Source: Aurantiochytrium sp. KH105 (Eukaryota > Sar > Bigyra > Thraustochytrida > Thraustochytriidae). From it: 53,568 nucleotides of DNA. Position 1 is the first letter of the stretch. Every line of letters begins with the position of its first letter. Shown here piece after piece: positions 6,897-42,168 of the stretch. A program made the translations under genes and the position numbers. The stretch is taken from positions 2,726-56,293 of the forward strand of contig BGKB01000276.1 in NCBI GenBank assembly GCA_003116975.1. Reading direction: 5' to 3'. The notes below the pieces were generated by a model. That model ran no database searches. It worked only from the letters and a program-made list of their open reading frames with translations, and had not been told where the DNA came from.

Positions 6897-9752
6897 TCAG
6901 TTGTCATGCGAATCTAAGCTTCGACTCTTGTCAGCTTGTTGTGCAGAGGTAGAGGAACAGGATCCATTTGAAGCCTTGCTGGACCGTGGAGTTCCCGGCT
7001 GGTCTGCTATTTTCTTCTCAAGCGCTGCAAAGCGCTCCTCTTGATTTGCAAGAAGTTCCGCGAGGGCAATCTGCACCGCATCGAGACGATGCGCTACCTC
7101 CAGATTGACCTCAACTTCAGCGCGATTACTGCGAAAAGAACTGTAGCAGCTCGAGTTTCTGTGCAACGGGAAAAACGGAGAGTTATCAAAGTCATCTTCT
7201 TCCGCGTCTTCAGCAGCCTGGTCCATCTCTCGCGCCGCGTCCTCCGAGATATTCGATGCGCTAGGTTGTGCGGTGGACAAAAATGATGGGCGGCTCAGGG
7301 GTTCGGACTCATCGCGTGCATGTGAGAGATTGGCGAGCTTGTCTCCAGCAGGAGCAAAGATCGATTGACGCCCGGGCTTGACATTCATTGTACTGTAACG
7401 AGAGAACTTTTCGGGTGACACGCGCTCAGGTGCTCCTCTGTCGAGAGAGCGCGTCGAATCTGCGCGAACATTCCTTTGAAAGATGGCAGGAATCGCTTTA
7501 GATATCGAAGATACTCGAGTGGAATGCACATCAGCCGCGTCCGAATCTTTCATGGCGTCATGAGCGCCATCTGTACCACCGCTACCGCCAGCACCAGTCT
7601 CACCACCGCTAGCTTCGTTCGCTATTTTTAAAGCCGCAGATTCATTTTGATTGGGACCTTGATCCTGCTCCTGATCTTGATCATGGTCTTGATCTTGGTC
7701 TTGATCTTGACCTTCCAAGTCTTCTTTTTCTTTTTCCTGCTGATTCTGTGTCATTGACTTGCGAAGACTCGAAAAGATGACACTCCCAGAGGTGACCTGG
7801 GTAGGCATCTGCGATTTTCGGGACGTTGTGCTCTCTTTAGCGCGACGGGATGCAACACCCCGCATCATCTTCAGTACCTCAGGAGAGTCGCGTACACAGG
7901 ACATGAAGGCATCCTTGGTCAATGTCAAAGTTTGAACTACCGGGGCCACCGCTCGAACCGAGGCCCCGCGGCGCTCACCGTAAAGCAGCGACCCTTCGCC
8001 AATAAAAGCGCCAGGCCCGCGCGATACCACAAAGTAACTATCTGCGATGATATCGTCAAAGTCCATGTTTGCGACATCTGCGTTCTTACCTTTGTGCGTG
8101 TACACTTCAATATCACCCTTGACAATGAAAAACAACTCCCGTCCCTCATCACCTTGGCGCATGAGAAAGTCGCCACTTAGAAAGATGTCTTGCGTGAAGC
8201 ACATGACAACTTTCTCGAGAAGACGCTGGGAGCATCTCGAAAATATTGGCACTGTGCGCACGAGATCCATGTAGAGAAAGACCATTATATCAATCTGCGC
8301 AGACTCTGGAACGCCTTCCATAATATCTCCAACGAGAACTTTGCGAAGCTGCCAGGTCGCCTCGTGGTAGCGAACAAGCCGCTCGCGGACGAAACGCGGC
8401 AAATGATTTGACCGCGCAAAGTCATTAATGCGCGCCACGCGCTCATTGTACTGATTTCGATGCCTGTCCCGCTCCTGGATCAGATTTGTAAAGGTTCCAA
8501 AGATCGATGCATACATGATCGATCCAAAGAACATGACCACAATTGCAAATCCGCGCTCCCAGAAGCTCACCGCTGCAATGTCACCGTACCCCACGGTGCC
8601 TAGCGTCGCAAATGCCCAATACAGGCACGAAAGGTATTGAAAACCCGTTGACCTATCGATAATACTGTATTCGTGCAACCAGTGACCCGTATCACTATAC
8701 AGCGCCTCGATTCGTCCGAGCGCAAAAAACATGCATCCGATCACATGAGCCATCACAAGAAAAGTGCCAAGCAGCTTGGCGATGCGCAGATAACCGGTCA
8801 GCACCATTTCATCCAGCCTCTTGATGACACGTGTAATACGCGCGAGCTTATTGATGGGAAAGAAAACTTGATACTCATCTGCAACCACGCCTTTCAGTAT
8901 GAGATCGAACTGCATACACGCGAGAAAATCGACGACAAACCATGTGTTGAGGTAGCGCCGTACAATCTGCCTGCGTTCTTTAATTTCATACCTGTCTTCA
9001 TCCAGATACGCCGTTCGGAAATTCAAGTAGACATCCACAATAAATACAATGTCGGTAATACGGCTCACGAGGCTCAGAACAAGATGCGAACCGAGCTCAT
9101 TTGCAAATGCAATCTGCAGAGGAATAAGGATGATGCTGTAAAAGGTCAGCACGATGATTACCCAGTCCCAGACATACTTGTACGGATTGTCATAATCGAT
9201 GATTCCAAAAGCCAACTCATAAAACGATGCGCGAGAGGCTTGCAATACGTCTGTCAGTGATGGTGGCTCTTGCAATTTAGGCGACGTCAGGACGCTTCCG
9301 ATGTCCCGCAAATCTATGGAAGCCCGCTTTGGTGTTTCCGAAAGCGCATGGTGTTGTTGTAGCGTTAGCCAACGTGATCCATCCTTAGCGTTTCCTATCG
9401 TTTCGGTCTGCAGACATCTGGCGGTAAACTTCTCCTCGAGGGTTCGTATTTGCGCGGCAGAAAACGTCCTTTTATCAAGCTCGTTGCCCGTTCGCTGGGG
9501 GCGACCCTCGGGCAGGCGAGCCGATTTCTCAACATTTTTCCGAAAATTTTTCGCTGCCCGCCGAGCAAGAACGATGCCCGCAAAGTCGAGTCCCGGTGAT
9601 GTCTGCGGAAGTCCTCCTCCGTCTTCTTGGTTTCTTGCGATGGAGGTGGCGTCCGTGACATGATTTTCCTCTGCGGCCAAATTTTCTCCTTCTGACGCTT
9701 CAACATTCTCTGAAGGATGCACTTTGTATGGTGCACTGGTGGAGTTCGACAT
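6897..9752 (-). CDS. Voltage-gated-type K+ channel with cyclic-nucleotide-binding domain (EAG/CNG/HCN-like)
   Basis: A 951-residue, intronless channel. Six transmembrane segments span residues about 185-415: S1 in WVIIVLTFYSIILIPLQ, an S4 with spaced basic residues (KLARITRVIKRLDEM), and a pore loop with TLGTVGYGD near residue 385, the K+-selective filter. After a C-linker, residues about 510-620 are a cNMP-binding domain with FIGEGSLLYGERRGASVRA, which keeps the Gly-Glu and the Arg of the phosphate-binding cassette. The long tail is disordered, with a DQ/DH/EQ-rich tract and a predicted C-terminal helix. The start is the first in-frame ATG (9752); the frame stays open further upstream without another ATG. 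Probable role: cyclic-nucleotide-modulated K+ conductance. Gating polarity cannot be read. Confidence 0.92.
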   Translation of the reverse strand: MSNSTSAPYKVHPSENVEASEGENLAAEENHVTDATSIARNQEDGGGLPQTSPGLDFAGIVLARRAAKNFRKNVEKSARLPEGRPQRTGNELDKRTFSAAQIRTLEEKFTARCLQTETIGNAKDGSRWLTLQQHHALSETPKRASIDLRDIGSVLTSPKLQEPPSLTDVLQASRASFYELAFGIIDYDNPYKYVWDWVIIVLTFYSIILIPLQIAFANELGSHLVLSLVSRITDIVFIVDVYLNFRTAYLDEDRYEIKERRQIVRRYLNTWFVVDFLACMQFDLILKGVVADEYQVFFPINKLARITRVIKRLDEMVLTGYLRIAKLLGTFLVMAHVIGCMFFALGRIEALYSDTGHWLHEYSIIDRSTGFQYLSCLYWAFATLGTVGYGDIAAVSFWERGFAIVVMFFGSIMYASIFGTFTNLIQERDRHRNQYNERVARINDFARSNHLPRFVRERLVRYHEATWQLRKVLVGDIMEGVPESAQIDIMVFLYMDLVRTVPIFSRCSQRLLEKVVMCFTQDIFLSGDFLMRQGDEGRELFFIVKGDIEVYTHKGKNADVANMDFDDIIADSYFVVSRGPGAFIGEGSLLYGERRGASVRAVAPVVQTLTLTKDAFMSCVRDSPEVLKMMRGVASRRAKESTTSRKSQMPTQVTSGSVIFSSLRKSMTQNQQEKEKEDLEGQDQDQDQDHDQDQEQDQGPNQNESAALKIANEASGGETGAGGSGGTDGAHDAMKDSDAADVHSTRVSSISKAIPAIFQRNVRADSTRSLDRGAPERVSPEKFSRYSTMNVKPGRQSIFAPAGDKLANLSHARDESEPLSRPSFLSTAQPSASNISEDAAREMDQAAEDAEEDDFDNSPFFPLHRNSSCYSSFRSNRAEVEVNLEVAHRLDAVQIALAELLANQEERFAALEKKIADQPGTPRSSKASNGSCSSTSAQQADKSRSLDSHDN

Positions 9753-10486
9753 TGGGGTTCCTTCGCGCTCTCGACAGCGCGCGCACTCGCGCAAGAACGT
9801 GCCAGCACGCAAATGCGCGTGCCTTCGCAGTCTAGACGAAGGCCTGCTTGATGTCAAGAGCGTAGTTTGCGCTTCGCTCTTGAGCACCCATGCGCCACCT
9901 AAAAGTGAACCCCTTCTGCTCAATCAAGTCTGCGCCTGCCACGAAATTCGCGCGACAGATTTCGACGCTCTGAGCCGTTATTCCTGTAGTGTTCGACTTC
10001 AATGCCCATCAAGCGACTAAACTGTCCATGGATGATCGACTCGGCCGAGGCGGATGGTTGCTTCCAGCAGACTATCCGTTATGTCCGGTGAAAAGTTTCC
10101 TTGGGAAAAAGTTGAACTTTGACTTGAAATTGGAAAAAAAGTCAAGGCCTTGCAAGGTAGGGCCTACGTAACAGTGTTGGTGCTCGTCACTGCAGATTAT
10201 TTTCCTTGAGAGGCCTAAACTGTTTGATTAGGTAGGCCTATGAGCAGGCGAGGTCCCGGCAGGCTATCTGCCGTGTGACCAAGATGTAACCAAGGCTCGG
10301 AAGCCAAATACGGGGGCTGTCCAATTTAGTGAGAACGTCGCACGAGCGTACACACGCGCTCTCAAAGGAATGTGCGAACGCGCGGCCGCTTTTGCCGCGC
10401 TGTGACGTATAGCGCTCGCCTCGACTTACAGGGGCGTTTGCTTGCAAGCAAGCGAGAGGGAGAGCCGCCAAACACCACTGCTGGCC

Positions 10487-30086: not shown

Positions 30087-32285
30087 TTACGGGCCCTGCT
30101 GCAAGATGCGCAAGGCTTGTTTCGCTTGCTCCTCGCTGGTTTTTGCGTTCTGAAGTTGCTGCATTAGGGAGGCAGGAAGCTTCTTCGCTTGCTCGATGAG
30201 ATTGAGGCGGAGCTCGGGGTCGATGGCGCGACCTGCTTCGGTGAGAAGAAGGCTTTGATAAATGCTAAAATGCTGCTGTACAGCAACCTGTTGCATGTGA
30301 GCTTCGCGCACTTGCTTGTGCATGTGCTCAATTAGCACTTCCTTGTTCACGCCAGGCATGCCGCCGGCGCCACCACCGCTCACGAAGTCCATTATGCTGG
30401 ACAGGTGAGTGGGCCCTTGGCTAGATATGTTCTGTGCGGAGGAGTTTGCCGCTGCTTGCCCGTTGCCCGAGCCTTGCATCTGGCCATGCGCGGTCATCAG
30501 ATTCGTGACCCCGCCCATTTGTTGGAATTGAGGCCCAGGATTTCCGCTTGCTGCTGGGGAATCTGTTGCGCGAACTTTCCGTGGACGCCCCCGCTTTGCG
30601 CCTGTTGCGGACCGCTTATTGGCTTTACCAGGGGTGCTCTCTCCCTGCGACCCGTTCGTCTCCTTTTTGTCTTTCTTTCCAGATTTGGAGCCCTCGGCTT
30701 TAGCTTTGGCCTTGATCATATTTCCTACCAAAGCAGACTTGAACGTTTTTCCATCGGTCTTTTCCTTGGAAGATACGATTCGAGGCTTGTCGCCGTTGGA
30801 GGCTTTTCCGCCTTTTTGTTTTTCTTTGCCGGGCGAGGGGGCTTTACCAACTTGGCTGCGCGAGGCAACAATGCCAGCTTCGAGTTCGGCCATGCAAGGT
30901 TTGCAGTGTGTGGCGCGAACGTTGCGGCCCTCCGTGGCCTTTGCCTGCTTGCAGCGCATGCACATACGATATCCCAGCTCCATATCGCTCTCTTTGTGCT
31001 TGGCGCAATATTCGCGCTGTCCCTTGTAGCCGTATGAGGCCGTCTTGGAGCAGCTAACATGCTTGCAAAGACGTTTCGCCACGGTAACCATGCCAGGCTT
31101 GCGGCAATCCGCACAGTGCGTCTTGTTCTTGTTGTTGGGCCACCCGTACGTTGGCGCAGTTTTCTGACAGACTTTGCAAAGCGAAGGGGAAATTGTCCCC
31201 ATGTTGACTGGCCGGCAGGTGTTACAGTGCGTCTTGATGGTGCCGTTTCCGTACTGGGCAATTCGGCAGCTCTCCCCTTCGCCGCTGAAAATAAGTTGGA
31301 CGCAGCCCACGCATGCGCGCTTCCATTCTGTGTTTGTTTTGTTGTGAGGCGTCTCGAAGCACTGTTGCGATTCATTCCATCGCAGCGTATCTACTTCAAC
31401 CTCGGCGCCGTGGGGCCACCATGGGCAGAGGTGCCCTGCGTGTGGAGCAAGAAGAGGCTGCAGAACCTTTTCGGAGAGAAATAGGTCGTACTTGCAAATA
31501 ATCTCAAAGCCGCGAATGCGCACAAATACGCCGAGGTCACGCTCGATGACCCTTGCTTGTGGAACGTGCCGCCTGCCAAGCACCTCTACTCCATTATTGA
31601 GGCTCTGGACCACAATGAAGGGGTCTTTTTCGTTGCCCCAGATATGGTCTTCGGGCCGCATTTCGCCGAGCATGGGCCCGTCTTGGCCGCCACGTCGGCT
31701 TTGCACTTCTGCGTTCGAGTCGACGTCATCTTCGTCGTCTTCGTCTCCATCTTCATCGGCAACGGCATCCATGTTCGCTTTACCCTTTGATTTGGAGTTT
31801 CCACGTGGCATCGCAGCGGCGTCCGCATTCTTGCGTGCCTTTGGCGTCTCGTTCTTGCCGGTCGCGCCCTTTGCTTCCGGCAAGTCACCGCTTTTGTTTG
31901 ATCGACCTGTAGATAGCTTGGCCAATGCGGGCATGTCTTTTCCGCCACTTTTTGCTTCGCCACCGGACTTTGAAGTTGAGGGTTTCGGCGCCTCTTGAGA
32001 AGGAGTCGAAGGTTTACGAGTAGGCGTAGGTGTAGTGTTAGGAGTCGCAACAGCAACAGAAGGCGGCGGCGACGACGACGACGCTGCTGCAGATGATGAT
32101 GATGGCGACGAGGCAGAGGTGGAGGTCGTCGTTTTCTTCGCGAGTGTTGGCGTTGCTGAGGTCGAAGCGTCGGCTGCCTTCGAAGGGGTGGTGGACCCGG
32201 TAGCTGCAGAAGGTCCGGGGTTTTCCGCCTTTGCGGGCATGTCTGTCTTCGCCGGGTCCGACGCAGGGATCTTATCGGTCTCCAT
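30087..32285 (-). CDS. EsV-1-7 cysteine-repeat protein with AT-hook
   Basis: A 732-residue, intronless protein from the ATG at 32285. The first ~200 residues are Ser/Thr/Pro/Ala-rich and disordered, then acidic (DEDGDEDDEDDVD). At about 338-463 lie Cys/His repeats of the EsV-1-7 type. The clearest unit is CKHVSCSKTASYGYKGQREY followed by CAKH; others are CKVCQKTAPTYGW..THCADC and CMRCKQAKATEGR..THCKPC. EsV-1-7 repeats are named from an Ectocarpus virus gene and occur in the brown-alga developmental protein IMMEDIATE UPRIGHT. KRGRPRK (about 562-568) is an AT-hook. The C-terminal ~100 residues are Gln/Met-rich and helical. A nuclear DNA- or chromatin-binding role is inferred from the AT-hook. 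Confidence 0.78.
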   Translation of the reverse strand: METDKIPASDPAKTDMPAKAENPGPSAATGSTTPSKAADASTSATPTLAKKTTTSTSASSPSSSSAAASSSSPPPSVAVATPNTTPTPTRKPSTPSQEAPKPSTSKSGGEAKSGGKDMPALAKLSTGRSNKSGDLPEAKGATGKNETPKARKNADAAAMPRGNSKSKGKANMDAVADEDGDEDDEDDVDSNAEVQSRRGGQDGPMLGEMRPEDHIWGNEKDPFIVVQSLNNGVEVLGRRHVPQARVIERDLGVFVRIRGFEIICKYDLFLSEKVLQPLLAPHAGHLCPWWPHGAEVEVDTLRWNESQQCFETPHNKTNTEWKRACVGCVQLIFSGEGESCRIAQYGNGTIKTHCNTCRPVNMGTISPSLCKVCQKTAPTYGWPNNKNKTHCADCRKPGMVTVAKRLCKHVSCSKTASYGYKGQREYCAKHKESDMELGYRMCMRCKQAKATEGRNVRATHCKPCMAELEAGIVASRSQVGKAPSPGKEKQKGGKASNGDKPRIVSSKEKTDGKTFKSALVGNMIKAKAKAEGSKSGKKDKKETNGSQGESTPGKANKRSATGAKRGRPRKVRATDSPAASGNPGPQFQQMGGVTNLMTAHGQMQGSGNGQAAANSSAQNISSQGPTHLSSIMDFVSGGGAGGMPGVNKEVLIEHMHKQVREAHMQQVAVQQHFSIYQSLLLTEAGRAIDPELRLNLIEQAKKLPASLMQQLQNAKTSEEQAKQALRILQQGP

Positions 32286-33654
32286 GGCGCTCCTCACTTC
32301 AGCTCTCTCTCCTCTGTATCCTCTGACTACTCTCCAACTCGTCTGCCTGCCTGTCTGCCTGCCCCGGTGTCGGGCCGGTTTCTTTGCACGGCGTGTATTC
32401 TTATTTTCTTCTTCTTCGTCTTTCTACGCAGACAGCGACGGCGTCAGCGGCAGCGGCGGCGGGGTCTGCGGCTGCCACGCGCGGCCCCACCCTCGCCCTC
32501 GCCCGCGCCCGCGCGCTGCGCGCGCCCGCACAGGAGCGGCCAGCGACTCTCCCTCCTGTCCTCGCAAGCTCGCGCCCGCCCGCTCACGTGCCTCGGCGCG
32601 ACGCGGCGGACGCGGCAGACAGACAGACAGTCAGGCAGGCAGGCGGGCAGGCCCCGGGGCGAGCAGGCGCTGCTGCGGCTGCCGCGAGACCTGCTGCAGG
32701 CGCTGCGCGGGCTCGCGCGCGCGGCCGCTCTGCCGCCTCGCGCGCCCTGGTCGCCGCGCTGAGACGAGCGAGGAGGCGCGACGAGATGCCGATTTGGTTT
32801 GAATCGAGTTGGCCGCTCCTTTGAATCGTTTTGAATGGAATGCTTGAGCGAATGAATTCGAATTCGATTTCAAATTCAACCAAATTCTAATAAGCCTGCG
32901 TGCTTTGCTTCCTTGCTTTGCTTGCTTGCGCTGCTTGCCTGCTTTCTTTTCAAAAACTCTTTTCGCTCACAGTCAGCGCCTTTCCTTCTCTTATTCTGCT
33001 TGTTCATAGACGTGATGGTAGGAGGAGCGGTAGGCCTCGCGCGCTGCGTGGCGCCGCCCCGAGTTTCACTTGCCGTACCGCATTCTCCACTTTCGCTGCG
33101 GGGATACACCACTGTAACCGCGCCCCACGCCGGGCTGGACCCGGCGCCGGCTGCGGGGTGCGGAGACAGGGGCCGCGGCGGCGCGGAAGTACAGAATGCG
33201 CCCATTCTGCACTTGTGAGCCCCCGATGCGGACTGTGAGCGCCGCGCCGCACTGCGCCTCCGGCGAGCCAACGGCCCGCTCTGTGGGGAGGAGAGGCGGA
33301 GAAGTGGTGCAGGGGAGGGAGGGAAGGAGGAAGGGAGAGAGAAAGAGGGAGGGAGATTTTTTTTCCCATCGCGGCCAAGAGCTCTTTTGCTGCCACTGCT
33401 GCACTGGTGGTGGTCAGTCACTGGCAATGGACCAAGGCTCCGATGACGCGACGCGAGCGGGATGTCGGCGCATGGAATGCATGTCGCAGAGGTTTCGTGG
33501 AAGAGGTTTGAGCAAAGAACGAATGAGAGCACGAAAGCAAGCAAGCAAGCAAGCAACATACAAGCAAGTAAGTTAGTTCTGTCGATAAAACGAAGGGCCA
33601 ACGATCATTTGAAGTGATAATAGGACAAAGTAGATTAGGCTTCTAGGCCTAAGC
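32286..33654. other. Long 5' flank of the EsV-1-7 gene
   Basis: 1.37 kb without a credible ORF. From the gene outward it holds a GC-rich block (32430-32780), a GAATT-rich block (32798-32888), TTGCT-like repeats (32903-32940), promoter half-sites and a palindrome (33067-33214), a GGGA/GAGA run (about 33316-33355), and (GCAA)n at 33536-33555. The distance between the palindrome and the ATG suggests a long 5' UTR or a 5'-UTR intron. Confidence 0.5.
33187..33214. promoter_or_regulatory. Second palindromic promoter-like element
   Basis: AAGTACAGAATG and CATTCTGCACTT flank a CGCC centre as inverted arms with one mismatch. The arms match those at 5072-5103. A further half-site CATTCTCCACTT lies at about 33081-33092 and CACTTGC at 33067-33073. 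The role is inferred. Confidence 0.55.
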
Positions 33655-36600
33655 TTAGGCGCGGCGCTGCAGGACCTGCAAAAGGTCGAGAGCCTGGAGG
33701 GAAAGGGAAACCTTGGCAACGACGCGGTTGTCGCGGTCATAGACCTCGAGGTCGTCGCCATCAAGGTCGCGCATCTCCTCAAGAAGCTCGACGAGATCCA
33801 CACGGGTACGTCCGAGGGTCTTAGAGCGACCCGAGGGGCGAACGCCCACGAGCTCGAGGTCCAAGTAAGCCTTGCCAGTACGCAAAGCTGCCTTGAGGGC
33901 CTTGCGTGTGCGAGATCCAGTGATTGCGGAAATGGTCTTACGCTGGTCACACTTGATCGTTTGCCGCTTGTGCGTCCCAGAACACGCCGCAGCGGGCGTG
34001 CGCACAATTTCCTTGTCCGGCAGACTGAATTGTAAAAACACACGCTCTAACTCCGTGTGCAACTTTCCTAGCTTGATGCTGCGAACATGCAGTGTCAGAC
34101 TCTCAGAGGACAACGCCTCTGCTGCTGCACCCTCGTTACCGAATTGTTGTTGCTCGTGACTGCTCCCCGCTCGCTGTCTGCGGCGCGGTGAGGCATTACC
34201 CCTGGCCGGGATCCCACCCTTGCCAGCTGCGAAATCAACAAATTCATCATACGAAATGAAGCCGTCGCCGTCTTGGTCAAAGATGTCCATGATCATACGC
34301 ACCTCGCCGTCCGTGAGCTCCAGGTTCAAATGACCGAGACCATCTCGAAACGCTTTGCGTGAGATAAGCCCGTCTGCATTGCGCTCAAAGTGCCGAAACG
34401 CTTTCCGGAGCGATGCGACGCGCCCCAGCATGCGGCGAAACTTATCTGCGACCTCTTCCACAGTTGCCTCTTCCTCTGGCGCCACAGCACGCAAAAAGTC
34501 GCGATAGCGCACCCGCGAGTCCTTACCGGCAAAACGCTCGATCAAAAGTCGCACGTGCTCAGGCTTTACGTCGATACCAAGCTGCTCGAGCCCGCGCCGA
34601 AAGTCGTCTGCATCTATGAATCCCGCATAGTGTGGGTCAAAGTGTTCGAAGGACTGCCTGTATGCGACTCCCTTCTGGTGAGCCTTTCGCACAAGCGCCC
34701 GTAGCTGCTGCGCAATCTCGTCTGCATCGCGGTCGGCTTGGCGCCGCTTGGCGCCTGGCACGGCGCTTGCATCCTCGCCCTGTGCAAAGGCCACGAATTC
34801 GGCAAAACTGATGCGCCCGTTTCCGTCAATGTCGAACTTGTCCAGCAATGCACGCACCTCGGAGTCGCTCAAGTCGAAATGCAAGACCTCGAGGCCCCGG
34901 CGAAAAGCATGTCGCGAAACCTGGCCGTGTGCATCAGGCTCGAAGTGGCGAAAGGTCTTTTCGAGTCCTCCTCGCCCAAGTCGACTCACACGCTTTTCGA
35001 TGAGGTGCCGGAGCTTGTCCGCGACCTCTTCCACGAAGGCAACATCGGCTGGCAAGCATTCGCGTAAAAATCGCCTGTATTTGATTGTCCGTCGCTTCGA
35101 GCCTGCGAAACGAGCAAACATTGCACCCAGCTGTTCCTTCGAGAGCTCAAAGCCGAGATCCCGCAGACCGGTCTCAAAGTCCTCGTAGGTAATCTGACCC
35201 GAGTAGTCAGTATCAAAGTGCTCAAACGACTTACGATAGTCCACGCCGCGATCGTGCGCTTTCTTGAGCAGCGTTTGGAACTCGTGCATGGCCGTGTCGA
35301 CGCTCGTTTCCAGGTTGACACCGCTGTTGCGACGAGCGCGACGACTTGAGCTTCTCGGGCTCGCGGGCGCAGCGACCGTGAGCTCAACGCCCCCGTTAAC
35401 AAAGTCGAGGCATTCCTGTGTATCAACTTGGCCTCCAGTTCCAGCAAACACAAAGCAGTCTGCGAGCAGGTGAGCGTCCCTCTCCTCGAGACCGAGCTGT
35501 TGGGACGTCCCGAGTAGCTGACTTAAAAAGACGGGCTTGGGGTTCACTCCGCCTGCGCCAGGTGTGAGAAGTTGTTGCAGCTGCACCCCGCCATCGCGCA
35601 GCTTGCGGCGAAGACGATCCGCAATTGTCACGGCCTGACGCGCCAGCTTGACCTGTTCCTCGAGCCATTGCGCAACAGCCTGAACTTTTGCGCTCCCTGC
35701 ACCATTTGGATCGAAACGAAGAATAATGCGCGCGATCTCCTCGCGCGAAAGAGCCAAGCCAAGCTTTTTCGCTGCGCTGCGCAGCCCGTGTTTGTCGACA
35801 AATCCAGTCCCATCTTCGTCGAACTTGCGAATTTCCTTTTGAGGATCGCGCGTCCACTCTTCCGCAAGCACGCTGGACATGATCAGCTTGCGAATTTTGC
35901 GCTCGAGTTGCGGGCCGAATTCAGGATCCTGAATAAAAGCTGCGAACTCGCCAAAATCAGCTTTACCAGAGCCTGAAACGTTGATTTTCTCGAAAAGCCC
36001 GACAACAACGCGATCTGGGGCCTCGAGAGCAAGATCCTTGATGGCTCGCTTCCATGCCTCAAGATCAAAGTGGCCCTTGCGTCGGCGATCAAAGTGTGTC
36101 ATCGGGACGCGGATGTTGCCCTGCAGCTCAACCTGTTCCTCCACCATGGCCCGCACTTGTTCGCCTAACTGAGCCACTGCCAGTGCAGATCCGCTCTCAC
36201 ACTCTGCAAGATGAAGAAGACGAGCGTACTCAACCACGCCTGTGCTCTCTGTATCGAGAACCAACGCAAGGTCCTCGAGAGCATCATGCGGGACGGCTGG
36301 ATCGACCTTTCGCAACGCAGCCAAGAAGCTTTCCTTGCGAAGCTGCAGGCTTGATGCCTTGGCACCATGGTGGGCAAAGAGCGCGCGGAAATTTACCCCA
36401 CGGCGACGCCCGGCGTACACAAGCCGCTTAACGAGCATCATCTGGTGCTCGGAAAGCCTCACGCCTTCCTGACGTGGGCTGCGTGGACTCTGCACAGTTT
36501 GCGAAGCAGCACTTTGCTCTTTGCGCACAGCCTCGGCAAATTCCTCGAACGACACATGGCCATCATGATTAGCGTCGAAGCGTTCTACCAAGGCGTGGAC

Positions 36601-39600
36601 CTCGGCGGGGACAAGGTCGAATGCTAGCGCTTCTAAACCAGTCTTGAAGCCCTCGTACGTAAGCGCAGCGACGGGAGATCCGTCCTGGTTGAAGTGCGCG
36701 AATGGAACTGACAAATCACCGCCTGCTGCTGCCGCGCGATTCACGATCAGCTTGCAAACCTTGCGAAAGACTGCATCGATGTACTCTTGATTCCCTTCCT
36801 GCTGTTTAAGGAACCGCTTGTACAGTACGTTACCTTCGGCATCCGTGAGGGGTGCCAGGTCTCCGTTTTCCACACCAACTTCGGCGAGTGCCTCTCCGAA
36901 GGCCTCCGCTGATAGTTTGCCCGTGAACGCAACGTCGCGAATCTCCAGCGCAGCGCGAAGCTTGCGCAGATCCTCGCGTGCAAGAATCTCGCCTTGCCGC
37001 GGAGACTCGGGATGAGAACGCGCAGAATTTTGACCCACGCTCACACGCGGGGAAACAGCAGTTCCGCTCGGTCCCGGGCCTGAAGTATTACCAGCGCGAA
37101 GCACCTTGGCGAACTCGTGATATTGAATAAAGCCATCGCCATCGCGGTCAAATTGTTCAAAGAGCGCGATGCGCTCCTCTTGGCCCAAGCCGTCGAGACC
37201 AAGCTGAGCAAGCCCAGCTTGAAAGTCCTTGCGCGTCACTTCGCCCTTCTTTTCGGGGTCAAAGTGCTCAAATACCGTCGTGATACGGGAGTGTTCGCCC
37301 ATGGTGCGCAGCTTGTCGACAACGTCCCGCGCCAAGACGCGGTCCACAAGGGTCCATTCAACAAAGGCCTGGTAGTTGACTTTGCGTCCGTCCTTTGAAG
37401 CGAATTTGGACGCAAGTGCTTGGATCTCAGCATGTGTGAGGGGAAGGCCGAGCATGCCGCACGCACGCTCAAACATGATTGGCGCAATGCTGCCCGTCCG
37501 TGTCCAATCATAGTGCTCGAATGGCCCGTGAAGCGTCATTCCCGCGGCGAGAGCGTTACGTGTGATATTTTGTAGGCGTTTACGCGCAGCACTCAGCGCT
37601 TGATCATCAATGTTGGCTGGATCCATCAAATCAATACGCTCGCCGCTCTCCTTGGCATGAAGAAACTTGACAAAGTCCTTGTACGACACCATTCCTTTTC
37701 GTTTCGGATCAAATCTTGAAAAGAGCGCCTGTGACTCTTTTCGGTTCACGTCGATGCGAAGACTACGCAGCGCCTTGGAAAACTCGACGAGCGAAATCTT
37801 TCCGTCCTTGTTTTTGTCAAAGTGCTCGAACGCCTGAGAAATCTGGATGCCATTATCCACCATAGCTTGGATGCGATCCCTGAGACGGGCCTCCACGCTA
37901 GCGAGAGCAACCGCCACGGATTGACCCTGAGCGAAGCGGACAAATGCGCGATAGTCCACCTCTCCGTTGCTGTCGGCATCGAAAATGTCCATGAGCACCT
38001 TGGCATCGTAGCTGCTCAGGGACGGCACATTGGCGCGAAGCGCCTTGGCAAATGCCCGGCGAGAGACGACGCCCCGTCTCTGCACATCGACCTCATAAAA
38101 TATAGCGGGAGAGCGAACTTGGAGAAGCGCATTGCAAATTTGGAAAGTGAGGCCGGACACGTTGCGTGGCTGGAAGCGTGCAAAGCGGACGAACTCGTTA
38201 TAGTCAACTTGACGGCGACGTCGCGACGGGTTTTGCGTGTCGTTGTCCGCATCCTCATGCGCTCTTGCCTCGGTCGAGTCATCATGGTCTGCCGCAAAAC
38301 ACAGGGCCAACGCCATGGCTTGCGACGACTGCATTTCCAACTCGCTCTCAACCAGGGCTCTCACAAAGTGCCCAGCAGGAATGTAGCCCGAGCGTCGCTT
38401 ATCCCGGGCGGCCAGCGCAGCGCGGAGATCGAAAGAAGAGCTCTTTTGCGCCAAAGCATGGCGCAACACATCCTCGGCATCGACGATGGCTCCTGCTCCA
38501 CTTCCGCTGCCCGAAAGCGCTGCCTTGGCTTCGCCCTCGCGCAATTGTGAGCGCGTCCAATAGCTACGAAAGTTGGACTGCAAACGAGTGGCCGAGTTGT
38601 CTGCCCCAGTGCCATAAAGGCCCAGAAGAGCCTCCCGTTCGGCGAAACTGCCGGCATGGACCTCCTCTGTGGCTTGCGCAGCGCGCGCGAGACGGTCTTG
38701 AAATTCGAGCTTTTTGCGCTCGTACAACTCAACGTGAGCCGGTTGCGCGTTTGCGTGAATTTCGTGTTCGCGATGCGCGGCCTGAGCATTATCTTGTCGG
38801 TCAGGTCCTTGACGCCTCGTAGTGTGCTCGGGACCGACGCGAACGGGTCTAGTTGAAATTTTGTCTTCATCGTCTCCTTCTTCTTCAAAGTCCGACTCCT
38901 CTCGTGGGTCTCGTAACAGAGTTTCGTGCTCATGAAGCCTAAAGCCGAGGTCTCTCAGGACGCGGCAAAAGTCGCGTGTGCTCAGCAAACCCTCAACCTG
39001 ACGGCGCTGAAAGGGTCTTTCGAGGTCTACTTCCTTTGCTTGCAGGATGCGAAGGGCCTTGACAACCTTTTGTTCACCTGCGGAAGGTGCCTCGACGGCC
39101 TGCAAAAATATGCTATAAGACACACGGCCCTGGCGACCTTCGTCGATCGCAAGAAGAAAGTCATCAAGCTCCTCCTCGGTGACGGAGACCCCGAGATCTT
39201 CGAGTGCCTGCCCGAGATCTGCACGCGTGATGAAACCATCCCCGTCCTTGTCCAGATGTCGACAGGCTGCGAAAGCATGGATGCCCCCATCTTCGGCGCG
39301 CTCAATAGCTGTACAAAGGCGCATGCGAATGCCCTGCACGCGGTCGTTTGCGCTGCGGAGGAAGCGACGCCAGTCCACAGCGCCATCGGTGTTGAATTTT
39401 CGGATAACTTGCTGCAAGTGGTCCTCGGAGAGCGCCATGACATCATTGAGCCCTGCGTCTTCGACAGTCAAGAGCGGAGACCGCCACGCCAAGCGAATTT
39501 CGACGGTACCAGCCTCGCATCCATCGACATCCCGAAGAGGATACCGCCCTGACACAGCCTTGCCTTGCGCAAGCTTGGCGAGCGGAATGACTGTCTTGCC

Positions 39601-42168
39601 AAGCAAACCGTTGAGGTCGTCATCGACGGTGCCCCGCCCGTCCATGTCATTGTCGTCGTCATCATCGTTGAGCACGTTGATTTCGAGCTTCTCGCGCTCC
39701 AAGTATCGCAAGAGCTTGTCGTCGACGAGGAGTGGAAATGGAGCGCGGTAGTCAAAGACGGGGTCAGCCGTATTCTGTAGAATGGGCGTGAACGTATCGG
39801 GGAAAGAGAGGAGCTGAAAATGCACAAAGGGGCTTGGGAACGCACGGTCCTTGGCCGGGAGACCTTCGCAACCAAGAATGGTGATCTCGAGCTGGTTTTG
39901 CGCCCTGGCGCGTGCGATCGCCGCGTCCTCGTGTTCTTGATCAATGACCTTGAGACGCTCGATGCGCTCGCGCTCGCCAGGGACCTCGCGGAGATATGTC
40001 TCAAAGAGTGCCTCAATCGGAAGGGCAAGGCGGATGCAAATGGTAAAGGTGCCAAGCACGGATCCGTCGCGCACACTGATAATCTGAGCGTCATCGACCT
40101 GCCATTTGCCTGAGCCATGCAATAGTGGTCGGAGAGAAAGCGCAGTCTGGCCGAGAAGTTCAAAGTCTCCATGGCGAGTACGATTGAGCTCCAGGGTGAG
40201 CGTGTCACTGGCCATGTAGCGCAGGAGGAAGTGATCGACCGCGACGCGGTACGTTGCAGCAAAGTTGAAGTTGGGCGTGAGACCGCTAACCAGAGGCGAG
40301 GTTTGCGTCTCGTAGTCATAAAAGTCGAGCATAACAAAGGTCGTTGCGGCCTGTTCAAGCTTTGTTTTATCGAGCTTGGCATCTTTGATCCAAATCTCAA
40401 TGAGGTTCTCGCCAGGTCCAAAGTCAGACGCTGAGGCCGCGAGCGAGACGATGCTGATGGCATCATCGTCATCACGTGCGTCATCACGACGGCCCTGACG
40501 TGGGGACGATGCGGATGTTGCCTGTTTTTTCGCTTTCTTCAAGAGTTGCTTGATTTGGGCCTCCAGGGCGTGAATCTTTTGCAGTCTGCGCGCGCAGAGC
40601 GTCTCATAGTCTTCGAGCTTGCGCAAAAGTTCATTATTGCTGCCCTTAACCTTGCGTTGCAGGTCGGAGATTTCCTCGTTGAGATCGCGGTTGATGGCCG
40701 TTTGGGCCTTGAGCATGCGCTCTGCCATTTCGAGGTCGCGGCATGTGTTAAGGTGGGTCATTTGAAGATCTTGCAGCTTGCGGTCGCTGGCCGGCGCGGT
40801 TTCAAGGAAGCCGACCTGACTCATGGCCTCTGAGCGCCTCTTGACGAGGGTTAGAGCACGTTCGAGCTCGCTGGCATCGACGCCTGCCTCTCCACTGTAG
40901 AGACGCATTTTGTCTTCGAGCACACTGGATCCGCGTTCGACCTGCTCGAGTTTGAGTTTCAGAGCGTGATTTTCCTGCGAAAGGTGATCGCGTTGCTTGC
41001 AAAGCTGCTCAGCGCTGGACTTGAGCGCAAGGATTTCGGCATGATGCATCTTGGCCGTCTCCTTGAGGTGCTCGATTTGTACCTTTTGCTGGCGGTCGGC
41101 GCGCTCAAGACCGAGAAGTTTGTCGACCTTGGAGCGCGACTCAAATGCATCATTGATGAAGGGGCTCTCACAAAGCGCGGTGATGCGCGTCTCGAGACGA
41201 TGCGCCTCTTCTTTGGTCGTAGCGAGCTCGAGAGCCAGGTCCTCTGCACGTTGTTGATGAAGGGCTAGCTGTTCGTTGTCGTGCTGAAGGGCTTGAATCT
41301 TGCGCCGCAAATCCCGAATGGTACGATTTCCTTCTTCCATCATGTGCACGGTGCGTTCATGAATTTCGGCAGCGGCGCGTGCCTTGGCCTCCAGGTGCTC
41401 GTATCGATTCTTCACGATTCGGATTTGCGCTTCTTTGTCTTGAAGTTCGCGCGTCAGCAAATCGGCGTCCTTGGCACTGAAAGTGCCGTTGCGCGCCGAA
41501 GGCGCGGCAAAAACTTCGCCAGCTTCGCCGCCAATGTTCTTGGTGCCCGGACGGTTCGGGACGGTGGTATCATTTTCTGTGCCGGGTTGCTGGCCGCGAT
41601 GGTGAACGCGGCGGCGGAGGGCATTGTTTTCTTCGTGGAGCTTGCGAATTCGCGTTTCCATGGAAAGAAGCTGCTTTCGAAGGGTCGCCACTGCGTTGCC
41701 GTCACCGCCCGCAGACTTTGGCCTTGGTCGAGCGGCGCTTGGAGCCACTTTACGTCGATTTCCGGGGGCGACGGGCGGTGCAGTTCTGATTTGCTCGCGT
41801 AAGTCGCGATTCTCACGACGAAGACGATCATTCTCCTTGCGCAGACTCTGAATAAGCGCGTCGGCCTCGCGATCGTCCTTTGTCTTTCCTTGTGGGCCTC
41901 TTGAGTTGCCAAGAGCCATGGGCCCGTTGGCTTGTTGATTTTGTTCCTTTGCTACCATGGTCTTGTCGATGAGTTGAAGCTTGGTATGCATTTGCCTCAT
42001 GATCGTCTGTTGTTCGTTGCTTTGGCGTTTAAGGGCTGCATGCTCTTCACGGAGTCGAAGGAATTTTTCCTCCCAGAACGCAGCGTCCTTGGGGCCCTGC
42101 GAGTTCTTGGGCGCATTTCCGCCGAGACGTGGCCCTCCGGCCACGTCGATGCTGTTGCGACCCATCAT
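33655..42168 (-). CDS. RPGRIP1L-like ciliary scaffold with a large EF-hand array
   Basis: One uninterrupted 2,837-residue frame. Residues about 20-560 are coiled coil. About 587-720 is a C2 domain like the first RPGRIP1L C2 (GENLIEIWIKDAKL; FVMLDFYDYETQTSPLVSGL; TPNFNFAATYRV). About 759-896 is a second C2 (NQLEITILGCEGLPAKDR; DPVFDYRAPFPL). From about 974 to 2640 run about 20 EF-hand-like motifs. Loops able to bind Ca2+ include DKDGDGFITRAD, DKNKDGKISLVE, DRDGDGFIQYHE, DANHDGHVSFEE, DTDYSGQITYED, DIDGNGRISFAE and DQDGDGFISYDE; others (DPKRKGMVSYKD, EPDAHGQVSRHA) are degenerate. The last ~145 residues resemble the RPGR-interacting C2 domain, ending VAKVSLSLQALDLL. RPGRIP1L organises the ciliary transition zone; the animal proteins have no EF-hands. 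Confidence 0.87.
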   Translation of the reverse strand: MMGRNSIDVAGGPRLGGNAPKNSQGPKDAAFWEEKFLRLREEHAALKRQSNEQQTIMRQMHTKLQLIDKTMVAKEQNQQANGPMALGNSRGPQGKTKDDREADALIQSLRKENDRLRRENRDLREQIRTAPPVAPGNRRKVAPSAARPRPKSAGGDGNAVATLRKQLLSMETRIRKLHEENNALRRRVHHRGQQPGTENDTTVPNRPGTKNIGGEAGEVFAAPSARNGTFSAKDADLLTRELQDKEAQIRIVKNRYEHLEAKARAAAEIHERTVHMMEEGNRTIRDLRRKIQALQHDNEQLALHQQRAEDLALELATTKEEAHRLETRITALCESPFINDAFESRSKVDKLLGLERADRQQKVQIEHLKETAKMHHAEILALKSSAEQLCKQRDHLSQENHALKLKLEQVERGSSVLEDKMRLYSGEAGVDASELERALTLVKRRSEAMSQVGFLETAPASDRKLQDLQMTHLNTCRDLEMAERMLKAQTAINRDLNEEISDLQRKVKGSNNELLRKLEDYETLCARRLQKIHALEAQIKQLLKKAKKQATSASSPRQGRRDDARDDDDAISIVSLAASASDFGPGENLIEIWIKDAKLDKTKLEQAATTFVMLDFYDYETQTSPLVSGLTPNFNFAATYRVAVDHFLLRYMASDTLTLELNRTRHGDFELLGQTALSLRPLLHGSGKWQVDDAQIISVRDGSVLGTFTICIRLALPIEALFETYLREVPGERERIERLKVIDQEHEDAAIARARAQNQLEITILGCEGLPAKDRAFPSPFVHFQLLSFPDTFTPILQNTADPVFDYRAPFPLLVDDKLLRYLEREKLEINVLNDDDDDNDMDGRGTVDDDLNGLLGKTVIPLAKLAQGKAVSGRYPLRDVDGCEAGTVEIRLAWRSPLLTVEDAGLNDVMALSEDHLQQVIRKFNTDGAVDWRRFLRSANDRVQGIRMRLCTAIERAEDGGIHAFAACRHLDKDGDGFITRADLGQALEDLGVSVTEEELDDFLLAIDEGRQGRVSYSIFLQAVEAPSAGEQKVVKALRILQAKEVDLERPFQRRQVEGLLSTRDFCRVLRDLGFRLHEHETLLRDPREESDFEEEGDDEDKISTRPVRVGPEHTTRRQGPDRQDNAQAAHREHEIHANAQPAHVELYERKKLEFQDRLARAAQATEEVHAGSFAEREALLGLYGTGADNSATRLQSNFRSYWTRSQLREGEAKAALSGSGSGAGAIVDAEDVLRHALAQKSSSFDLRAALAARDKRRSGYIPAGHFVRALVESELEMQSSQAMALALCFAADHDDSTEARAHEDADNDTQNPSRRRRQVDYNEFVRFARFQPRNVSGLTFQICNALLQVRSPAIFYEVDVQRRGVVSRRAFAKALRANVPSLSSYDAKVLMDIFDADSNGEVDYRAFVRFAQGQSVAVALASVEARLRDRIQAMVDNGIQISQAFEHFDKNKDGKISLVEFSKALRSLRIDVNRKESQALFSRFDPKRKGMVSYKDFVKFLHAKESGERIDLMDPANIDDQALSAARKRLQNITRNALAAGMTLHGPFEHYDWTRTGSIAPIMFERACGMLGLPLTHAEIQALASKFASKDGRKVNYQAFVEWTLVDRVLARDVVDKLRTMGEHSRITTVFEHFDPEKKGEVTRKDFQAGLAQLGLDGLGQEERIALFEQFDRDGDGFIQYHEFAKVLRAGNTSGPGPSGTAVSPRVSVGQNSARSHPESPRQGEILAREDLRKLRAALEIRDVAFTGKLSAEAFGEALAEVGVENGDLAPLTDAEGNVLYKRFLKQQEGNQEYIDAVFRKVCKLIVNRAAAAGGDLSVPFAHFNQDGSPVAALTYEGFKTGLEALAFDLVPAEVHALVERFDANHDGHVSFEEFAEAVRKEQSAASQTVQSPRSPRQEGVRLSEHQMMLVKRLVYAGRRRGVNFRALFAHHGAKASSLQLRKESFLAALRKVDPAVPHDALEDLALVLDTESTGVVEYARLLHLAECESGSALAVAQLGEQVRAMVEEQVELQGNIRVPMTHFDRRRKGHFDLEAWKRAIKDLALEAPDRVVVGLFEKINVSGSGKADFGEFAAFIQDPEFGPQLERKIRKLIMSSVLAEEWTRDPQKEIRKFDEDGTGFVDKHGLRSAAKKLGLALSREEIARIILRFDPNGAGSAKVQAVAQWLEEQVKLARQAVTIADRLRRKLRDGGVQLQQLLTPGAGGVNPKPVFLSQLLGTSQQLGLEERDAHLLADCFVFAGTGGQVDTQECLDFVNGGVELTVAAPASPRSSSRRARRNSGVNLETSVDTAMHEFQTLLKKAHDRGVDYRKSFEHFDTDYSGQITYEDFETGLRDLGFELSKEQLGAMFARFAGSKRRTIKYRRFLRECLPADVAFVEEVADKLRHLIEKRVSRLGRGGLEKTFRHFEPDAHGQVSRHAFRRGLEVLHFDLSDSEVRALLDKFDIDGNGRISFAEFVAFAQGEDASAVPGAKRRQADRDADEIAQQLRALVRKAHQKGVAYRQSFEHFDPHYAGFIDADDFRRGLEQLGIDVKPEHVRLLIERFAGKDSRVRYRDFLRAVAPEEEATVEEVADKFRRMLGRVASLRKAFRHFERNADGLISRKAFRDGLGHLNLELTDGEVRMIMDIFDQDGDGFISYDEFVDFAAGKGGIPARGNASPRRRQRAGSSHEQQQFGNEGAAAEALSSESLTLHVRSIKLGKLHTELERVFLQFSLPDKEIVRTPAAACSGTHKRQTIKCDQRKTISAITGSRTRKALKAALRTGKAYLDLELVGVRPSGRSKTLGRTRVDLVELLEEMRDLDGDDLEVYDRDNRVVAKVSLSLQALDLLQVLQRRA

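Follow-up and report, generated by a model that had tools for sequence, protein, structure and literature searches.

The gene on the minus strand at positions 33655..42168 of the window is the one RPGRIP1L (protein fantom/MKS5) orthologue that we found, present as two alleles; between its C2 pair and its C-terminal C2 domain lies an array that, as read from sequence and predicted models, comprises 15 or more EF-hand pairs and a weak IQ motif. The window is the whole stretch of DNA analyzed, 53,568 nt from the flagellated marine protist Aurantiochytrium sp. KH105 (contig BGKB01000276.1, positions 2,726 to 56,293, forward strand).

Domain organization of the RPGRIP1L gene

A single ORF of 2837 residues, with no internal stops, fills 33655..42168 (stop included). 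The initial annotation described the whole 8.5 kb as one exon; in the genomic sequence the frame is indeed open throughout. All features given below lie on the minus strand. An N-terminal coiled-coil-like region, recognized from the sequence (residues 1-560, 40489..42168), is 59-74% identical in the relatives P0003-P0005. It is followed by a first C2 domain (PF11618, C2-C2_1; residues 581-717, 40018..40428; Pfam E 1.9e-40, above the cut-off) and a second C2 domain (PF00168; residues 759-878, 39535..39894; E 1.1e-8). The EF-hand array (residues 967-2649, 34222..39270) precedes a C-terminal C2, the RPGR-interacting domain or RID (residues 2687-2834, 33667..34110). Pfam returned C2-C2_1, C2, EF-hand_7, and C-terminal RPGR1_C in the order proposed earlier, with the EF-hands placed between the second and the last C2 domain.

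Two other ORFs of the window were noted. The adjoining one (30087-32297, minus strand, 736 amino acids) carries an EsV-1-7 cysteine-rich motif (PF19114, E 2.2e-11), and one at 6897-9923 (minus strand, 1008 amino acids) has ion-channel and cyclic-nucleotide-binding domains.

Assignment to RPGRIP1L

The initial annotation assigned the protein to RPGRIP1L, and PF11618, the second C2, and the C-terminal RPGR-interacting C2 were all found. A search of the C2 pair against solved structures gave a single significant relative, human fantom (RPGRIP1L; 2yrb, E 1.4e-14); the only other row had an E value of 0.74. A better match of the C2 domains to another family, named beforehand as the outcome that would count against the assignment, did not appear in either the profile or the structure comparison. 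The C-terminal domain matched weakly by profile: RPGR1_C scored E 0.036 with the whole protein and 0.0013 with a C-terminal slice, below the Pfam cut-off, as was also the case for P0003. Against PDB profiles, this region matched RPGRIP1 at only E 0.29. In a profile search of the genome, one locus, together with its allele, exceeded the PF11618 cut-off, while two other places matched below it (26.4 bits). Taking identity alone, we regard the gene as almost certainly an RPGRIP1L orthologue. The PF11618 C2, the second C2, and the fold of the RID are common to this protein and to animal RPGRIP1L and RPGRIP1 (2yrb, 4qam); we know of no EF-hand array in the animal proteins.

One gene, present as two alleles

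The second allele (G000:C109) encodes 2838 residues and differs from the window protein by 60 substitutions and one inserted residue. Between the alleles, the overall pN/pS is 0.11; the array has 0.13 and the C2/EF junction 0.08, while the linker at residues 1104-1240 has 0.45 and, taken alone, shows no significant constraint (P 0.14). Synonymous changes are in significant excess in the array (P 1e-30) and in the C-terminal part (P 0.0012), and at the C2/EF junction 8 of 10 changes are synonymous (P 0.00025).

These data bear on the reading that two adjacent genes, one for RPGRIP1L and one for an EF-hand protein, are joined by a chance open frame. The point in its favor is that the NCBI protein of Hondaea fermentalgiana lacks 99 residues. 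Against it, both alleles keep the frame, purifying selection spans the junction, and C2 domains followed by EF-hands occur, by sequence, in P0003-P0008 and in P0009. We therefore rejected the two-gene reading, which we consider extremely improbable, on the grounds of the frame and purifying selection shared by both alleles; the claim of a single gene holds.

The Hondaea protein (P0002, Protein fantom, also from a thraustochytrid) is an orthologue with 19 differences in the 2738 residues that it has in common with the window protein, and the source thraustochytrid is, judged by sequence, very close to H. fermentalgiana. As deposited, P0002 has no counterpart of residues 2644-2742 of the window protein, a stretch within which the RID begins. 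The corresponding 297 nt (33943..34239), bounded by GT and AG and free of stops, were apparently modeled as an intron. Relatives align here (55/97 residues identical in P0003, 26/75 in P0004, 24/82 in P0005), and 6 of 11 allelic changes are synonymous, more than expected by chance (binomial P 0.026). Because of this alignment and synonymous excess we read the stretch as coding; conservation suggests that the deposited Hondaea fantom protein is short.

The loci searched in this genome (G000) mostly occur as contig pairs, and so were read as two haplotypes. Between the two alleles of RPGRIP1L, 8.6% of synonymous sites differ, a value that seems high for haplotypes within one species and that may reflect a hybrid origin.

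The EF-hand array and its IQ motif

Pfam EF-hand_7 matched 10 stretches of the window protein (E 6.9e-94). An EF-unit HMM, built in iterative rounds from this set of proteins with the window protein among them, gave 30 matches at E<=1 and 23 at E<0.01, whereas 30 shuffles of the array averaged 1.0 match at E<=1 and never gave more than 3; one of the 30 falls in the second C2 and was taken as chance. Most of the 30 units have degenerate loops. Structure models, built on four sequences and with mean pLDDT of 75 and 71, contain 11 predicted EF-hand pairs in residues 1220-2300 and 4 in residues 2290-2650, counted by eye from secondary structure. Given the 23 HMM units and the predicted pairs, the earlier estimate of about 20 EF-hands is too low. 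Other very long open frames in the genome (2,040-3,413 codons; G000:C73, C106, C6, and C39, with their paired contigs) also match the EF array.

An IQ-like motif lies within the array (residues 1191-1210, 38539..38598). The loose IQ pattern at residue 1196 occupies the same alignment place in all eight aligned proteins, and the strict pattern occurs in P0009, which is outside that alignment; shuffles of each protein gave 0.19 to 0.39 loose matches. The window motif is degenerate at the G position, the P0008 row has a proline within it, and P0005 and P0006 each have one extra loose match elsewhere. Pfam IQ was run on slices of the window protein, P0004-P0007, and P0009. Five of the six slices matched, the exception being P0004; the match was above the cut-off in P0009 and below it in the other four, just below in the 63-residue window slice (E 0.00071).

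Retention of predicted Ca2+-binding loops

Candidate Ca2+ loops were scored by a simple coordination rule and by a stricter PROSITE-type pattern. Both were satisfied by the canonical loops at residues 973 (39217..39252), 1451 (37783..37818), 1674 (37114..37149), 1865 (36541..36576), 2446 (34798..34833), and 2631 (34243..34278); a near-canonical loop at residue 2319 (35179..35214) passed the simple rule and failed the stricter pattern. The expectation of at least seven Ca2+-type loops is thus borne out by the simple rule, with six by the stricter one, and 500 shuffles of the array gave a mean of 0.012 loops and a maximum of 1. By the simple rule, P0003 has seven of the seven and P0004 four (alignment read by eye); P0005 retains most of them in the alignment, and the distant relatives P0006-P0008 fewer, again as read by eye. 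From these loops we infer that the array may be a Ca2+-responsive module.

Similarity to microtubule inner proteins

Searched against the PDB by sequence, the array gave EFCAB6 and CFAP115 as its best rows; length favors arrays in this ranking, which was set against a single control. For that control we took 1271 residues of L003, a different EF array of this genome; the piece, which is shorter than the window protein, matched calmodulin first, with EFCAB6 absent from the best 60 of its 267 PDB rows. With Foldseek, ranks 1-12 for the middle part of the array were all doublet-microtubule entries, with the caveats that long repeat arrays favor other arrays and that the rmsd is large, so what matches is the individual pairs, not the overall shape. 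EFCAB6 and CFAP115 resemble the window array in being strings of EF-hand pairs. In the published descriptions consulted, Chlamydomonas FAP115 has one EF-hand pair and an 8 nm repeat, Tetrahymena CFAP115 has four pairs (PMC10105768), and in mammalian doublets EFCAB6 occupies the inner junction (PMC8595878). These proteins differ from the window protein in lying inside doublets, and the descriptions consulted name no coiled-coil/C2 scaffold or RID for them.

Such matches raise the possibility that the array is purely structural, a string like a microtubule inner protein (MIP) that runs along the transition-zone doublets and binds tubulin, its Ca2+ loops being left over from its origin. The sequence and fold rankings, the different behavior of the control array, and the many degenerate loops all point this way. 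Retention of the seven loops in P0003, and of most in P0005, argues against it, and the ranking itself is weakened by the shorter control piece and by the possibility that long EF arrays in the PDB are mostly ciliary. To our knowledge, moreover, RPGRIP1L is a transition-zone protein not known from the doublet lumen. On balance we think a purely structural array possible but doubtful. A more specific version, which we put forward as quite a long shot, is a MIP-type array of ~16 pairs that lies axially along the transition-zone doublets and has its far end occupied by the RPGR-binding domain. If each pair read a single 8 nm tubulin dimer, the spacing reported for Chlamydomonas FAP115 (PMC10105768), the array would cover ~125 nm and serve as a ruler or clamp of the transition zone that Ca2+ can tune.

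Related proteins with RPGRIP1L and EF-hand domains

PF11618 and EF-hand domains occur together in eight database proteins, P0002-P0009. The C-terminal C2 of P0003, P0004, and P0005 is the same as that of the window protein, while P0006, P0008, and P0009 end in EF-hand units by the HMM; for P0007, RPGR1_C was not among the 25 matches listed. Some of the forms ending without a RID (P0006-P0009) may be cut gene models. EF-less RPGRIP1L proteins of protists were sought by alignment among the ~8,000 candidates sharing most words, and two such searches yielded 13 and 10 proteins. Four proteins without EF-hand Pfam domains, P0010-P0013, were rejected as such: P0010 and P0011 extend beyond the second C2 and have three and two weak EF units by the HMM, P0012 and P0013 (780 and 662 amino acids) end inside or before the second C2, and all four look like cut gene models. 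P0014 and P0015 were discarded as EF-hand proteins without PF11618.

The literature that we searched yielded one description of EF-hands in RPGRIP1L, that of Paramecium, and an earlier mention is possible; nothing was found there that links RPGRIP1L, a stramenopile, and the transition zone. Compared by description, the Paramecium protein has a coiled coil, C2 domains, and EF-hands in its C-terminal part, which the authors describe as Paramecium-specific and place where the RPGR-binding domain would be (PMC7093003); the window protein has both. Chlamydomonas RPG1 is described as having a disordered stretch of ~450 residues in its last third (PMC6215392). The fusion of RPGRIP1L with EF-hands as such is therefore already known, from Paramecium and the eight database proteins; what is new here, by sequence, is the stramenopile host, the long array, and the retained RID, which make this a more elaborate version of the Paramecium arrangement.

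Discussion

The coiled coil and C2 domains of RPGRIP1L form a scaffold, and an RPGR-type partner binds at the RID. In the explanation that we find best overall, and somewhat favor, the window protein is such a scaffold with a Ca2+-tuned accessory EF array. As in other eukaryotes, the coil and C2 domains would make up the scaffold of the transition zone; the RID would bind an RPGR-type partner. The array would be a long string of pairs linking the two, built like the axonemal microtubule-inner EF-hand proteins; many pairs would be structural. A rise of Ca2+ at the flagellar base would act through the six or seven loops competent for Ca2+, which would tune the stiffness of the string or its contacts; perhaps centrin, calmodulin, or one of the array's own pairs would then bind the internal IQ helix. 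The genome has parts of a transition-zone MKS module that could host the protein, with B9 loci in five pairs and CC2D2A-type loci in one; the CEP290 family profile had no match in this genome, nor in the controls.

The array would be accessory to the scaffold rather than its core; in Paramecium, RPGRIP1L without its EF-hands localized alike and rescued deciliation, which supports this view (PMC7093003). Taken by itself, the Ca2+-tuned accessory role seems to us an evenly balanced proposition. The same study bears on the idea that the array senses Ca2+ and so sets off the shedding of the flagellum at the transition zone. Ca2+ triggers deflagellation, and depletion of Paramecium RPGRIP1L impairs Ca2+-induced deciliation; however, the EF-less protein restored it, and the authors point to defective Ca2+ influx (PMC7093003). 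We consider a shedding sensor unlikely and retain the tuned accessory array as the preferred reading.

An EF array in a stramenopile together with a retained RID suggests that the fusion may be ancient, predating the stramenopile-alveolate split, and that the array may be an insertion, not a replacement of the RPGR-binding domain; two separate fusions are the alternative. The gene ties a ciliopathy scaffold to a fold like that of the microtubule inner proteins, and it marks a protist group for study.
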